Assembly: GCA_020049295.1 (NCBI GenBank)
Contig: JAIFLC010000175.1
Location: forward strand, 1-32,632
Reading direction: 5' to 3'
DNA length: 32,632 nt
Source of the DNA: Bacteroidota bacterium
GTDB taxonomy: Bacteria; Bacteroidota; Bacteroidia; Bacteroidales; UBA12077
The notes under the pieces are model-generated. The model did not search any database. It was not told the origin of the DNA and worked only from the letters and a program-made list of their open reading frames with translations. The translations under genes were made by a program, and so were the position numbers. Numbering within the stretch: position 1 is the stretch's first letter; each line of letters starts with the position of its first letter. Below are positions 24,415-30,284 of this stretch, piece by piece.

Positions 24415-27057
24415 TTATAATAAATTGTTTGATGTAGAATCCTCATCAAATGTAATTTGAAATTTTTGATCTGTTTTTATATCTTTTTCTATAGAATTTA
24501 ATTCTTTATTTGGAAGGTTTTCTTCCCATTCAATTATAAATGTGTTTGATTTTTTAGGAGGAAAAGTATCTTTCAATATCAACGAATCGTTTTTAAACCA
24601 TCCAAACTCATCATTAAAAATTTTCTTAAGCTGTGTTTTTTCTTTTTGTAGTTCAGTTTTTCTTGCTTCACGGGCTTGTTTGCGATCATAACTTATCTTG
24701 TAATTGTCAGGGTTTCCATAAATTTTCAAGTAAATATTTGTTTTACCTAATCCATCATCTTCGAGGAATTCGTCTGTGTTATTTTGTTTGGCTTTGTCTT
24801 TTGCATTTTTTGCCAGCAAATCGGACAATAAAACACGGAGACTATATTCAAACGTATTATCAAAACTATGTGTTCCGGATATAGAAATATTTATTGCAGA
24901 CGAATTAATATCCATTTTTGGGATATAAACTTTTTCGTCTCTTACATTTATTTGATTTTGTAAGGTTGAAAATTTTATATGCTCTAGTTCTTTTATATCA
25001 ATAAATTTTGATAATTGTCTCATAGGCTCAAAACCGATAAGAGCTCCATTCTGGATTACAAAGGTACTCTCGCTTTTTACTGATTTCTTGTTTATTTCAA
25101 GTCTATCGTTAAAAAATGATGAAAAATACAAATCTCCTGATATATCGCCCGTTATATTTTTTGCTGGCAAAAAGGTTTGTCCAAAGTTATTGAATGAAAA
25201 AAACAACTTGTTTATGTCAATGTTTTTAAGGGAACTTTGAAATTTTACAATAAAATCGTTCTTATAATCCTGAACTATAACACCTCCAATTTTAGCAGAG
25301 CCATTCATCGAATTGAATGAGATTTCATGGAGTGAAAACATTTTAGGTTTATAATTAAGACTACCTTTAATTTGAGTTGCATTAAATTTTCCTACACAAA
25401 AATTTTGGATCTGTAGATTTAAAAAGAGACTTAATCTCTCTGGAAACTTATATGATGGATCTTTTTTTTCTGTTTTGTCAGAAAAAAACAATGGAGATAA
25501 CTGGTTTAAATCAAGAGAGGTTGATGTTAATTCTGCCAAAACCGATGTTGTGCCTTGCGAGGAGAAGTACTGATAAAGATTTGTTGCTTCACCGTTAAGC
25601 ATAATATCATTGTCGAGAATTTTAAAACACAGGCTATCGGTGTATAATGTTTCATTAATAGCGAGTAATCCATTTATTCCTTCAACAATTAAAGAATTTC
25701 CCTTGATTTTTAGTTGTCCATTTTTTATTCGCAGATTAAATGCAAACTCCTTTTTAAAGAAATTATAAAATTGAAAATCTTTGATTTCCTTTAGATTTCC
25801 AGAAAAAGTCCCGTTAATTTTCCCTGTTCCTGATAAAATCTCAAGAGTGTCGATCGCAAAGGTGTTGTGTATCTCTCTAAAATCAAGATCTGCAGAATAG
25901 TTAATCAGGACAGACGGATCAGAAAAATCAGAAATTAATAATGAACCAGAACCAGTGCTTTTATCAAGAGCAACACTAAAAGAATTCAATTTAATATATG
26001 ATGTTTTAATGCAATTTCCATTTCCGTTGGAAAATTCTCCTTCTGTATAAATTTGCTTAATTGCTATACTTTTAGAGAAATCATTAAAAACGGCATTCTT
26101 AATTTGAAATTTGCCAGTTATTTTTGGATTTTTGAATTTTGATAACTCCCCAGTTATAGTCGAATTTACTTTTATATATCCTTCATTAACTTGTATTGTT
26201 GAGATTTCATTTCTGAAATTTAAGGGGATTATATTCATTAAGCTTTCAAGCAACTGATCTTCTGCGGCTATTTTTAAATCAAGTATCAGAATTTCCTGAT
26301 TTGTAATACTTCCAGTAATACTTGTGCTAAAGGACCCGAGGGTAATATTTCCCATTGAAAACGCAATAAGGTTATCATCTATATTTAATAAAAAATCAGC
26401 AGCAAGCTTTTTATTGACAATATATTTATACTTTGCAACTGAAAAAAGGGAGATAAACATTGAAGAATTTACCTCTAAACTAAAATTTTCATTATATAAC
26501 AATCCTTTAAGATTCGCTTTATCAATTTTAGAACAAAGGTGAATATTACTTTTTTCATCGCAAAACTGTATGTCGGTTTGGGTTAGTTTTACTTTGTTCA
26601 ATTCTAGTTTAAATTCATTATCTGAAGGACTCTCAGAATCCCAAAATCTAAAATTTTCATTACCAAATTGATCAATAAACACATTTATTTTACCCTGATC
26701 AAAGTGAATGTTTTTTATTGTGTAGTTTTGAGTTAATAAATCCAAAATATTGAATTGCAGAAAAAGTCTGTGAGCATAAAATAGGGTGTCAGTTTTTAAT
26801 CCACAAATAACGTTGGAAAATATTGATGGGCTGTAAGCTGTAACTGACCTAAATTCAATCGAAGCATTAGGAAATTTTCGAAGCAAGGAAAACTTAGAAT
26901 CTTCAACATTTATTTTAACATCAATGCTTTCATTAAGTTCTTCAATAATGTATTGCGTAACCTCTTTTTCATATATTAAAGAAACAGAAATAGCAATTAT
27001 TAAAAGAAAAACAAAACTTAAAACTAATCCTAAAAGTAGTGATTTGATAAGTTTCAT
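24415..27057 (-). CDS. AsmA/TamB-like inner-membrane-anchored protein
   Basis: This 880-residue protein has one N-terminal membrane helix (about 8-28), then a long beta-rich periplasmic body with many short repeating strands (for example IKNIHFDQGKINVFID and LSISGTHSF-type segments). A charged C-terminal end (near 780-880) is rich in lysine and glutamate. This is the layout of AsmA-family proteins, which are thought to form grooved beta rods helping phospholipids reach the outer membrane. Family membership is inferred from architecture and motifs such as INISISGTHSFDNTFEYSL near the C-terminus. It has its own promoter element. Confidence 0.82.
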   Translation of the reverse strand: MKLIKSLLLGLVLSFVFLLIIAISVSLIYEKEVTQYIIEELNESIDVKINVEDSKFSLLRKFPNASIEFRSVTAYSPSIFSNVICGLKTDTLFYAHRLFLQFNILDLLTQNYTIKNIHFDQGKINVFIDQFGNENFRFWDSESPSDNEFKLELNKVKLTQTDIQFCDEKSNIHLCSKIDKANLKGLLYNENFSLEVNSSMFISLFSVAKYKYIVNKKLAADFLLNIDDNLIAFSMGNITLGSFSTSITGSITNQEILILDLKIAAEDQLLESLMNIIPLNFRNEISTIQVNEGYIKVNSTITGELSKFKNPKITGKFQIKNAVFNDFSKSIAIKQIYTEGEFSNGNGNCIKTSYIKLNSFSVALDKSTGSGSLLISDFSDPSVLINYSADLDFREIHNTFAIDTLEILSGTGKINGTFSGNLKEIKDFQFYNFFKKEFAFNLRIKNGQLKIKGNSLIVEGINGLLAINETLYTDSLCFKILDNDIMLNGEATNLYQYFSSQGTTSVLAELTSTSLDLNQLSPLFFSDKTEKKDPSYKFPERLSLFLNLQIQNFCVGKFNATQIKGSLNYKPKMFSLHEISFNSMNGSAKIGGVIVQDYKNDFIVKFQSSLKNIDINKLFFSFNNFGQTFLPAKNITGDISGDLYFSSFFNDRLEINKKSVKSESTFVIQNGALIGFEPMRQLSKFIDIKELEHIKFSTLQNQINVRDEKVYIPKMDINSSAINISISGTHSFDNTFEYSLRVLLSDLLAKNAKDKAKQNNTDEFLEDDGLGKTNIYLKIYGNPDNYKISYDRKQAREARKTELQKEKTQLKKIFNDEFGWFKNDSLILKDTFPPKKSNTFIIEWEENLPNKELNSIEKDIKTDQKFQITFDEDSTSNNLL

Positions 27058-27088
27058 ATTTAGTAAAGCGATATTTTGAATTAAAACG

Positions 27089-27096
27089 CAAAAATA
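27089..27096 (-). promoter_or_regulatory. -7 promoter element for the AsmA-like gene
   Basis: The minus strand reads TATTTTTG (exact TAnnTTTG) 31 bases before the start codon. No -33 TTTG is visible at the expected distance. Confidence 0.5.
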
Positions 27097-27171
27097 TAAA
27101 ACTTATGGTGGAAGTGCGCAATCTTATATCAGATATTGAAAATAAAACAAATCAGCAATTGCTGGGTAGTT

Positions 27172-27885
27172 TTATAACTGACTTTTTCTAATTTCTTCAA
27201 GATAAGCCCTTTGTAAAAGTTTAATCCGTTCCGGGTTTTTTTCCTGGTCGTAAATCCTCACTAAGTCCAATATTCCTTCATTGCGATAAAAGGCTCCTTG
27301 GGCAGCATCAAAATTATTATTATCAATATTATGTTTAATATTTTCGGTGTATCTTTTAAATTGTTCCCAGGTTAAAAAAGAAGGTAATTCAATATAACAT
27401 TTTGATTCTTCTTTTAGATCTTTATAAAGACCGTCCCCTTTATCAGAAATGAAAAAACTCTTATTAATAACAATTATTGCCGATGAATTTATGTGAGTTT
27501 GTTTTGCAAATTTTATTCCTGCATCTTTAAATAGGGTTTGTAACTCAGGAATGAATGTAAAGCTCCTTAAATATTTAATTCGAATGCAAGGCAATGTTTC
27601 TGATTTGAAATGAAGATGTCCTTGTGAAGCATTAAAATTAAATTTAATTGATTCGCACATATTTTTTGTAATACGAGCTACCTCCTCAAAAGAATAGTCC
27701 TTTGTTGTAATAAGAAAAAGAGATTGAGGTTGCGATTTATCAGGGAAATTTCCATGATAACCGGGAAAGGGTTGTCGGCTTTCAAGAACTAGTGTATTTG
27801 GAATAATATTACTTTCAACAGTTACCAAAGATTCTTCTTTCTTAATATACCCGAAGGTTTCTATTTTAATTTCAGAATGATTCAT
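27172..27885 (-). CDS. Unrecognised 237-residue protein with two similar halves
   Basis: I do not recognise this protein. It has no signal peptide or membrane helix and should be cytoplasmic. It contains an internal duplication. Residues 65-89 (SFEEVARITKNM... ending FNASQG) align with 172-197 (TWEQFKRYTENI... ending FDAAQG) with one gap and about 10 of 24 identities, including the N-x-F-x-A-x-Q-G end. Each copy is preceded by a strand-like hydrophobic run (TLVLESRQPF; SAIIVINKSFF) and followed by an I-R-I / V-R-I strand. This suggests two copies of an alpha/beta domain of about 75-100 residues. The gene is divergent from the U32 gene, with a -7-like TATCTTTT at 27902-27909. Confidence 0.75.
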   Translation of the reverse strand: MNHSEIKIETFGYIKKEESLVTVESNIIPNTLVLESRQPFPGYHGNFPDKSQPQSLFLITTKDYSFEEVARITKNMCESIKFNFNASQGHLHFKSETLPCIRIKYLRSFTFIPELQTLFKDAGIKFAKQTHINSSAIIVINKSFFISDKGDGLYKDLKEESKCYIELPSFLTWEQFKRYTENIKHNIDNNNFDAAQGAFYRNEGILDLVRIYDQEKNPERIKLLQRAYLEEIRKSQL

Positions 27886-28027
27886 AATGTATATTTTAGT
27901 AAAAAGATAAGATATTAAATTAAGGCGTGGAAGTCAATAATTTAACCAAAAAAATATTTCCCGATTATGTTGTAAACAAAAAATGATTATGAATAGTTCA
28001 TTATAAACATTTTCAATTTGAATACGT

Positions 28028-28035
28028 TAAATTTG
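28028..28035 (+). promoter_or_regulatory. -7 promoter element for the U32 gene
   Basis: TAAATTTG, an exact TAnnTTTG match, lies 28 bases before the ATG at 28064. The sequence at the usual -33 distance is not TTTG. Confidence 0.5.
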
Positions 28036-28063
28036 CACAGAAAAATTTGAAGTTATTATTGTG

Positions 28064-29320
28064 ATGAAAAGAGAAGATATTGAAATAATGGCTCCAGTAG
28101 GTTCGTACGAATCGCTTATAAGCGCAATTCAAGGTGGAGCAAATTCTGTTTATTTTGGAATAGAAAAGATGAATATGAGAGCCAACTCATCGAATAACTT
28201 TACTTTCGAAGATCTAAGTAAAATATCAAAACTTTGTAAAGAAAATGGCATAAAATCCTATCTCACTGTAAATACAGTCGTTTACAATAATGAGTTAGAT
28301 TTAATTAAAGAGATTATTGATGCTGCGAAGGAAAATGATATTTCTGCAGTTATTGCTGCTGATATCGCAGTTATTAATTATGCAAGAAGTATTGATGTTG
28401 AGGTTCATATTTCGACACAGTTAAATGTTAGTAATATTGAAAGTGTAAAATTCTTTGCCCAATTTGCTGAGGTAATTGTTCTGGCCAGAGAGTTAACACT
28501 TGAACAAATTGCCGATATAGTAAAAACCATAAAATCAGAAAACATTAAAGGACCATCAGGGAAACTTATAAAAATAGAACTCTTTGTTCATGGTGCATTA
28601 TGTATGGCAATCTCTGGTAAATGCTATTTAAGTTTACACGAAAAAAACCATTCAGCAAATAGAGGTTCTTGTTTACAAACGTGCCGGAAAGCTTACATTG
28701 TTAAGGAAAAGGAGTCGGGTTATGAACTCGAAATCGACAATGAATATATTATGTCTCCTAAAGATTTAAGTACAATTAAATTTTTAAATAAAATTTTGGA
28801 TGCAGGAGTAAGTGTACTAAAAATAGAAGGGAGAGCTCGCCCTGCCGAATATGTAAAAACAGTATCTGAATGTTATAATGAGGCTGTTAATGGGTATTTA
28901 GCAAATGATTTTACGGATGCAAAAATCGAGGATTGGGAAAAACGGCTAGCAACTGTTTTTAACCGTGGTTTCTGGGGAGGCTACTATCTTGGACAAAAAA
29001 TAGGTGAGTGGAGTCACCGATATGGTTCTAGAGCAACTAAGAGAAAAATTTATATTGGCAAGGGTACAAATTATTTTACCAAACTTAATGTTGCGGAGTT
29101 TTTAATCGAAACGAACAGTCTTAGTGTTGGAGATGAAATATTAATTACAGGACCTACAACAGGAGTAATACAGACTTCCGTTAAAGAGATCAGGGTCGAT
29201 TTAAAATCTGTACAATCAGCAACTCAGGGAGAGAGGTGTTCAATACCAATTGACCAGATTGTTCGAAGATCAGACAAGCTTTATCTCATAGTTGATTCAG
29301 ATAAAATTAAACAACAATAA
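28064..29320 (+). CDS. U32 family protein, TrhP/YegQ-like RNA hydroxylation enzyme
   Basis: This 418-residue protein matches the U32 family historically called collagenase-like peptidases, several of which are now known to hydroxylate RNA. It has a TIM-barrel-like N-terminal half (IMAPVGSYESLISAIQGGAN) and the cysteine cluster GKCYLSLHEKNHSANRGSCLQ followed by TCRKAY, likely iron-sulfur ligands. The conserved SPKDLSTI and KIEGRARPAEYV follow. Length and these motifs fit TrhP (YegQ), which makes 5-hydroxyuridine at position 34 of tRNAs. RlhA, which acts on 23S rRNA, is much longer. GTG at 28061 is directly before the chosen ATG and could also be the start. Confidence 0.82.
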   Translation: MKREDIEIMAPVGSYESLISAIQGGANSVYFGIEKMNMRANSSNNFTFEDLSKISKLCKENGIKSYLTVNTVVYNNELDLIKEIIDAAKENDISAVIAADIAVINYARSIDVEVHISTQLNVSNIESVKFFAQFAEVIVLARELTLEQIADIVKTIKSENIKGPSGKLIKIELFVHGALCMAISGKCYLSLHEKNHSANRGSCLQTCRKAYIVKEKESGYELEIDNEYIMSPKDLSTIKFLNKILDAGVSVLKIEGRARPAEYVKTVSECYNEAVNGYLANDFTDAKIEDWEKRLATVFNRGFWGGYYLGQKIGEWSHRYGSRATKRKIYIGKGTNYFTKLNVAEFLIETNSLSVGDEILITGPTTGVIQTSVKEIRVDLKSVQSATQGERCSIPIDQIVRRSDKLYLIVDSDKIKQQ

Positions 29321-29338: not shown

Positions 29339-29743
29339 CTATTTATTAAAGCTCTGAAACCACTTAATTGCTTCTTCTTCAGTATTGAATAGTTTCATTG
29401 GAATTCCATATTTATTTACAACAAGGAGAATCATATTTAAATAGTGTTTTTTAAAAACATTTCCATCAAATACTACCGCTCCGTGTTTAACCCCTAATTC
29501 AATCGCTTGCGGTATAATAACTGATTCAAACCACTTTCTGTTTTCAGGCGAAACAACACCTTGATATCGGATATCGGATAAAAAATTTACCATTGGGTTT
29601 TTCTTAATATGCTCAAGCAGGACTTGAAAGGCATGTTGATATTCGGTGTTGGATGCTTTTTGCTTCCATGCAACCATTCCCATTTTTAACGAAGGGTCAT
29701 ATGAAACATGAGCATAATTATTATCAAGAATTGTATTTTTCAT
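29339..29743 (-). CDS. SpoIIAA/SEC14-like 134-residue protein, copy 1
   Basis: This 134-residue soluble protein alternates strands and helices as in STAS/SEC14-like (SpoIIAA-like) domains. Landmarks are NFLSDIRYQGVVSPENRKWF near 53-72, a G-V-K-H-G-A-V-V-F-D strand near 84-93 and an EEEAIKWFQSF end. About 88 of 134 positions are identical to the upstream gene, with no gaps, so the two arose by tandem duplication. A phosphorylatable serine as in true SpoIIAA is not evident. The role is unknown. An almost consensus -7 (TAATCTTTG on the minus strand, 29768-29776) precedes it. Confidence 0.75.
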   Translation of the reverse strand: MKNTILDNNYAHVSYDPSLKMGMVAWKQKASNTEYQHAFQVLLEHIKKNPMVNFLSDIRYQGVVSPENRKWFESVIIPQAIELGVKHGAVVFDGNVFKKHYLNMILLVVNKYGIPMKLFNTEEEAIKWFQSFNK

Positions 29744-29879: not shown

Positions 29880-30284
29880 TTATTTATAGAAACTTTGAAA
29901 CCACTTAATTGCATCTTCTTCAGAACTAAATACCTTTAAAGGGATTCCATATTTATTAATTACCTGGATGATCATATTTATATAGTATTTTTTAAAAACA
30001 TTACCATCAAAACAAACGGCAGCACGCTTAAGGCCATTATTTATAGCTTTAGGAATCATAACGCTTTCGAACCATTTACGGTTTTCGGGTGAAACAACTC
30101 CTTGATTTCGTATATCAGATAAAAAGTTTTCTATAATATGTTTTTTACTATACTCAATCATTACTTCAAAAGCATTTTGGTATTCGGAATTTTCAGGTTT
30201 GTGTTTCCAAACTACTATGCCTAATTTTAACGAGGGGTCGTGTAAAATCTGTGCATAATCAAAATCAAATATTACCTGTTTCAT
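29880..30284 (-). CDS. SpoIIAA/SEC14-like 134-residue protein, copy 2
   Basis: This tandem paralogue of the following gene has the same length and alignment from first to last residue. The most conserved stretches are NFLSDIR, QGVVSPENRKWFESV, FDGNVFKK, NKYGIP and AIKWFQSF. Differences concentrate in the first 50 residues and around 79-91. The SpoIIAA/SEC14-like assignment rests on the strand-helix pattern and is moderate. The gene has its own exact -7 element and could also be cotranscribed with copy 1 across a 136-base gap that shows no terminator. Confidence 0.75.
   Translation of the reverse strand: MKQVIFDFDYAQILHDPSLKLGIVVWKHKPENSEYQNAFEVMIEYSKKHIIENFLSDIRNQGVVSPENRKWFESVMIPKAINNGLKRAAVCFDGNVFKKYYINMIIQVINKYGIPLKVFSSEEDAIKWFQSFYK

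Follow-up and report, generated by a model that had tools for sequence, protein, structure and literature searches.

The minus-strand gene at positions 27172..27885 of the window (the whole stretch of DNA that was analyzed, 32,632 nucleotides) is an exact open frame of 237 codons plus a stop. Its product, P0001, consists of two halves that are almost certainly homologous; thus, a tandem duplication produced a two-domain protein that is now found in many families of Bacteroidales. Each domain is probably a ferredoxin-like α/β sandwich (β1-α1-β2-β3-α2) with an extra leading strand, an assignment that is supported but unproven. The best overall explanation that we can offer, and which we hold tentatively, is that the duplicated ferredoxin-like domains form a pseudo-dimer that serves as a non-catalytic binder of a ligand or RNA. 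P0001 is a genuine bacterial gene, and its family is new and unnamed, although its structural kind is already known.

Internal duplication

The preliminary description of this region reported that residues 65-89 of P0001 match residues 172-197, and it proposed the duplication of an α/β domain of about 75 to 100 residues. By our count, made by eye, the 10 identities and the single one-residue gap of that match are present, but they span 25 columns rather than 24, and the ending common to the two segments reads N-F-(N/D)-A-(S/A)-Q-G instead of N-x-F-x-A-x-Q-G. The duplication itself is well supported by profile matches of half against half, with about 90 to 95 residues per copy. According to these HHalign comparisons, repeat 1 comprises residues 27-122 (27520..27807, minus strand) and repeat 2 comprises residues 137-233 (27187..27477, minus strand).

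Judged from the P0001 sequence alone, the match between the halves is marginal: its BLOSUM62 local score is 54, the mean of shuffled sequences is 27, and 2 of 2000 shuffles reach at least 54. It is strong once relatives are added, when it reaches about 90 residues per half. The profile self-comparison that had been suggested as a check aligned residues 28-122 with 140-231 (HHalign, full-length 51-row profile, E=2.6e-7). When the two halves were taken out of the 51-row and the 99-row alignment and compared, their E values were 4.1e-8 and 8.2e-8, respectively. Two separately built 29-row half alignments matched over 88 columns at E=1.8e-9, with an identity of about 20%. When the columns of half 2 were shuffled, the best score was 21.5 against a real score of 47.6 for the 51-row alignment (n=200) and 18.0 against 43.9 for the 99-row alignment (200 more), and a reversed half 2 aligned over a single column. 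Furthermore, the half-2 profile matches half 1 in the same frame of a relative (G441) with an E value of 4e-5, and half 1 of two others (G037 and G447) with E values of about 0.03.

Both halves contain the motif F-(D/N)-A-x-x-G. The consensus is also shared at L34/I146, E35/S147 (mostly E in the family), G42/G152, T73/T180, C77/K184 (K), F84/F192, N85/D193 (D), A86/A194, G89/G197, R102/R210, I103/I211, and F119/Y228 (Y). The halves could instead have converged on a common fold pattern without any duplication, as the marginal single-sequence match (2/2000 shuffles) would allow. We consider such convergence very improbable in view of the identity of about 20% retained over 88 columns, the motif found in both halves, and the fact that no shuffle (0/200 in each of the two alignments) came near the real score.

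A search with the half-2 profile through 198 genomes of the order, 78 of which matched at E<=0.05, gave in this loose first look no clear case of a single-domain form. All matches with E values near 1e-8 or lower come from frames that are 231 to 290 residues long, the length of a double domain, with one exception, a 189-aa frame close to a contig start (G402). Eight matches have E values of 0.01 to 0.04; two of these are half 1 of G037 and G447, and the other six, in frames of 38 to 100 or 693 residues, four of them interrupted by stops, look like chance matches.

Predicted fold of the repeated domain

A full-length AlphaFold model built from four close sequences was poor (mean pLDDT 46.4); therefore, its Foldseek list (coproheme decarboxylase, the designed Foldit4, and others) was set aside and not used as evidence. 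We also modeled half 2 (residues 123-237) from eight half sequences taken from the window and three loci. This model has a mean pLDDT of 69, with values of 72 to 87 in ten-residue blocks from model residue 31 onward. It starts with a short low-confidence strand, followed in the confident part by the order strand-strand-helix-strand-strand-helix. DSSP assigns E40-44, H51-65, E70-79, E82-91, and H96-114, and the β-α-β-β-α(-β) order is thus seen for half 2 alone.

In a ferredoxin-like sandwich, which has the order β1-α1-β2-β3-α2, β3 is the central strand. Co-variation in an alignment of 130 sequences (Neff 108), which bears out the model in part, points to the same strand neighbors, β1-β3-β2, in each half. 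The register of the β2-β3 hairpin is identical in the two halves (sums of 189 and 405), and antiparallel pairing of β1 with β3 is detected in both (F57-R102 and Y164-R210). Averaged over the halves, the hairpin sum is 189 and the β1-β3 sum is 159, which places β3 between β1 and β2 in antiparallel orientation, with moderate statistics. The strongest co-varying pair, T73-F119, and the fourth strongest, its equivalent T180-Y228, place one predicted helix-helix contact at matching positions of the two halves.

Equivalent pairs scoring above Z 2 in both halves numbered 11, versus 4.0 expected (p=0.0019), in a test for which four thresholds were tried on a simplified residue map of our own making. 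The excess was 4 versus 1.0 at Z 2.5 and 2 versus 0.2 at Z 3, and at Z>1.5 the overlap was at chance level (19 versus 19.5 expected). Overall, the co-variation scores of one half correlate only slightly with those of the other (r=0.033, a value reached by 41 of 2000 permutations). For a possible fourth strand beside β1, both I59-I124 and Y13-L56 score, with weak co-variation. The N-terminal strand (residues 12-16, G-x-x-x-K; 27838..27852, minus strand), recognized by its conservation and strand-pair scores, co-varies weakly with both halves and may correspond to the strand of the linker at residues 123-128.

Foldseek returned nothing at E<=0.001 for the half-2 model or for the full-length one. 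The best VIA Z score of the half model is 6.7, within the range of common arrangements. Among the structures that VIA lists are 2mq8, which is a designed ferredoxin fold, and the ACT domain 5v0s, but topoisomerase, MscS, and other rows score level with the ferredoxin-like ones. Since there is no significant PDB match and the Z scores are middling, the ferredoxin-like name rests on topology and not on a match.

A family of Bacteroidales

The preliminary description could not name the family, and neither can we, as no Pfam, NCBIfam, or PDB sequence match is convincing. Whole-family and half-2 profiles found no match among PDB sequences; three chains of protein phosphatase 1 regulatory subunit 7 aligned with half 1 at E values of 1.2 to 1.7 over 21 residues, which we took as chance. 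Pfam and NCBIfam searches with 51 members produced scattered weak matches and no consistent family. The DNA mimic DMP12 (PF16779), matched by 7 of the 51 members at E<=1 (best E, 0.0014), was rejected; the single member with a score shown had 16.5 bits, under the curated cut-off of 27 bits. CAS_csx31 was matched weakly by 2 of the 51 members (best E, 0.00054). The best PHROGs and PADLOC matches, for three members only, had E values of 0.074 and 0.049 and were likewise attributed to chance. Chlorite dismutase, HemQ, and DyP carry a conserved proximal heme His. We discarded these families, which are absent from the Pfam matches of P0001 (E<=1) and from the list of 22 families that the 51 members gave; no His position of P0001 reaches 70% among 99 sequences, and the corresponding structural rows had Foldseek E values of 0.1 or more against the poor full-length model. 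In Pfam and NCBIfam, the P0001 protein itself does not match the U32/TrhP, MnmH, or QueA families. Among the titles and abstract openings covered by a literature search, we recognized no paper describing the P0001 family, which leaves the absence of such a paper unproven.

Fifty relatives are 34 to 78% identical to P0001 (alignment A2). Of 59 near genomes, 34 gave a match to the family in protein searches, as did 112 of the 295 Bacteroidales genomes examined; both counts include the source genome. In a phylum sample of 296 genomes, only two others of which belong to the same order, the source genome was the sole match with the 51-row profile and again with a single-protein query. The family looks restricted to Bacteroidales, an order that the phylum sample hardly covers. 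A second, distant paralog of P0001 (22 to 28% identity) is found in loci L055 to L059, from genus g2 of the family to which the source belongs. In four of these five loci, the gene that follows, at gaps of -1 to 21 bp, scores weakly against the LuxE acyl-protein ligase model (47.2 versus 550 bits for one member). The P0001 family is conserved and unnamed, belongs to Bacteroidota that have been little studied, and has an internal repeat that is clear. It merits a family model of its own; by itself, the finding overturns nothing.

Gene neighborhoods

P0001 had been described as standing alone in a divergent position beside an RNA-modification gene. The divergent neighbor is a U32-family gene by Pfam and NCBIfam (28061..29320, plus strand), but its best NCBIfam match, TrhP, reaches 179.9 bits, whereas the cut-off of that model is 534 bits. 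Because this score is far under the model cut-off, an RNA role for the gene is likely rather than established, and the gene may represent a distinct U32 subfamily. P0001 does not clearly stand alone either: a same-strand gene for an 880-aa, putatively AsmA-like protein (24415..27057, minus strand), with no Pfam family over cut-off, lies 117 bp downstream and recurs across loci. Scans of positions 26700-28200 yielded 4 promoter-like sites versus 8.8 in shuffles and, on the plus strand only, 2 terminator-like sites versus 0.3 in shuffles; neither result is taken as evidence here. Just past the U32 gene are two tandem, mutually similar paralogs of 134 aa on the minus strand (29339-29743 and 29880-30284). 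Both have weak, sub-threshold matches to DUF7793, the 29339-29743 copy has a further one to a SpoIIAA-like family, and one cluster of such genes was found again in six loci.

Of 104 loci searched, the 101 in which a family frame was selected served for the neighbor counts, with some genomes giving two loci. No frame was selected in L114, L129, and L151, which were left out (3/104; L114 alone, 1/64, in a smaller set of 64 stretches), although their genomes do hold an intact family match at those places. Frame starts were picked automatically, so some N-termini are uncertain, and each neighbor is named after one scanned member of its cluster. The commonest same-strand partner is an MscS-type channel gene (Pfam on one member), which directly follows the family gene in 13 loci (L089, L090, L096, L109, L121, L122, L124, L126, L131, L134, L136, L139, and L143); the four gaps measured are 15 to 78 bp. 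The 880-aa gene follows in 11 loci including the window, as the very next gene in 10 and next but one in the other, and all 11 are from the source genus or one other genus of its family. A U32/TrhP-like gene occurs within two frames in 14/101 loci, 11 of which are from the source genus and one other genus of the family. By coordinates, MnmH directly precedes the family gene, in the same orientation, in 11 of the 112 family-bearing genomes, the copy in G445 being a fragment; in 7 of these 11, which account for its 7/101 loci, it was confirmed as the adjacent frame. In a twelfth case, G596, it lies about 1.6 kb upstream. In six loci, QueA follows on the same strand, either directly or with one frame in between, and a PssA-like gene lies upstream on the opposite strand, also in six. 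The gene upstream in L083 is a TRAM/tRNA-U5-methyltransferase gene, and L087 has a member of that cluster. Overall, neighbors vary from branch to branch of the family tree; therefore, we rejected the idea of a single fixed partner.

Conserved residues and possible roles

The most conserved charges among 99 sequences are near-invariant (E35 and R102, 0.96 each; D193, 0.92; R71 and R210, 0.91 each), and Y43, D156, and F192 are also at 0.91 or more. No Cys or His position of P0001 reaches 70% in these sequences, 9 of which contain no Cys whatever; this speaks against chemistry based on a metal, heme, or thiol. With a median of 6.85, the isoelectric point is near neutral. We propose that the two domains would pack as a pseudo-dimer and that P0001 would not be a metal, heme, or cysteine enzyme. 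A ligand or RNA may be bound via conserved residues, charged or aromatic, and some of these are repeated from one half to the other; the candidates are E35, R71, and R102; K184, D193, and R210; and Y43 and Y164. P0001 might then act as a binding or adaptor protein. Such a non-catalytic binding role is possible but doubtful, and its link to RNA modification, possibly real, is weak.

The same near-invariant charges (E35, R102, D193, R71, and R210) would also suit an unrecognized enzyme of a known ferredoxin-like superfamily. This seems unlikely to us, as no family matches consistently (with PHROGs and PADLOC run on three members only) and neither Cys nor His is conserved. It is also unlikely that the family is an accessory of tRNA or rRNA modification whose pseudo-dimer holds RNA or one of the modifying enzymes, for instance MnmH, QueA, or the U32 protein. 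In its favor, different branches of the tree keep different RNA-modification genes adjoining: MnmH in 11/112 genomes (one a fragment, 7 confirmed adjacent), U32/TrhP-like genes in 14/101 loci, QueA in 6/101, and the TRAM gene of L083 with its cluster mate in L087. Moreover, 67 of the 112 family-bearing genomes have MnmH, versus 50 of the 183 that lack the family (p=5e-8, uncorrected for kinship). Yet the control is weak: RNA-modification genes make up 3 of 17 recurrent immediate neighbors versus 1 of 20 recurrent clusters 4 to 7 genes away, the latter named by eye and not all by family search, and this difference may be due to chance. The category was, besides, sought because the preliminary description had named it. 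Adjacency to MnmH and to U32 may reflect one inherited block, since L088 and L117 carry both. Finally, 45 of the 112 family genomes, including the incomplete source genome, have no MnmH match at E<=1e-30, for which reason MnmH was rejected as a requirement. On the family tree, where MnmH labels were set by hand from coordinates, the genomes with adjacent MnmH are spread over several separate branches, and this scatter fits an old gene order retained in places.

Given the weak neighbor control, we keep the RNA link as a weak lead only; recurrence beside RNA-modification genes does provide a cheap functional test. A narrower version, in which the two duplicated ferredoxin-like domains of an order-specific family form an RNA or anticodon-loop clamp beside wobble-base enzymes (MnmH, QueA, and TrhP-like) whose partners are swapped between lineages, is improbable. 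Alternatively, the family could serve the cell envelope or the osmotic response together with the MscS-type channel and the presumably AsmA-like 880-aa protein, as suggested by the MscS-type gene directly downstream in 13/101 loci (at 15 to 78 bp in four) and the 880-aa gene downstream in 11, the window among them. We find this quite unlikely, because both partners are confined to parts of the family tree and the start of P0001, read by eye, has no evident signal peptide or membrane segment.

Relation to known systems

The U32/TrhP, MnmH, and QueA enzymes are related to P0001 by recurrent gene neighborhood alone. In the duplicated GyrI-like/SHS2 fold, two strand-helix-strand-strand units form one common sheet; no family of this kind is among the Pfam matches of P0001 and the 51 members. 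The YbjN and type III secretion chaperone-like fold (VIA rows 6vu7, 5fr7, 5frk, 1k3e, 3kxy, 5z38, and 1xkp) aligns with 78 to 88 residues of the half model at Z scores of 5.0 to 5.9, which unrelated folds equal, and these proteins differ from the P0001 half in showing 8% identity or less. As a conserved, unnamed family from environmental genomes, P0001 is similar in kind to those of the FESNov catalogue of novel gene families from uncultivated taxa (PMC10849945). The closest structural likeness proposed here is to tandem or dimeric ferredoxin-like sandwiches such as the ACT-like ones. P0001 differs from them by its extra leading strand and has no significant sequence or Foldseek match to them, but it has in common with them the strand-helix-strand-strand-helix order, the probable strand neighbors β1-β3-β2, and the occurrence of two copies per chain.
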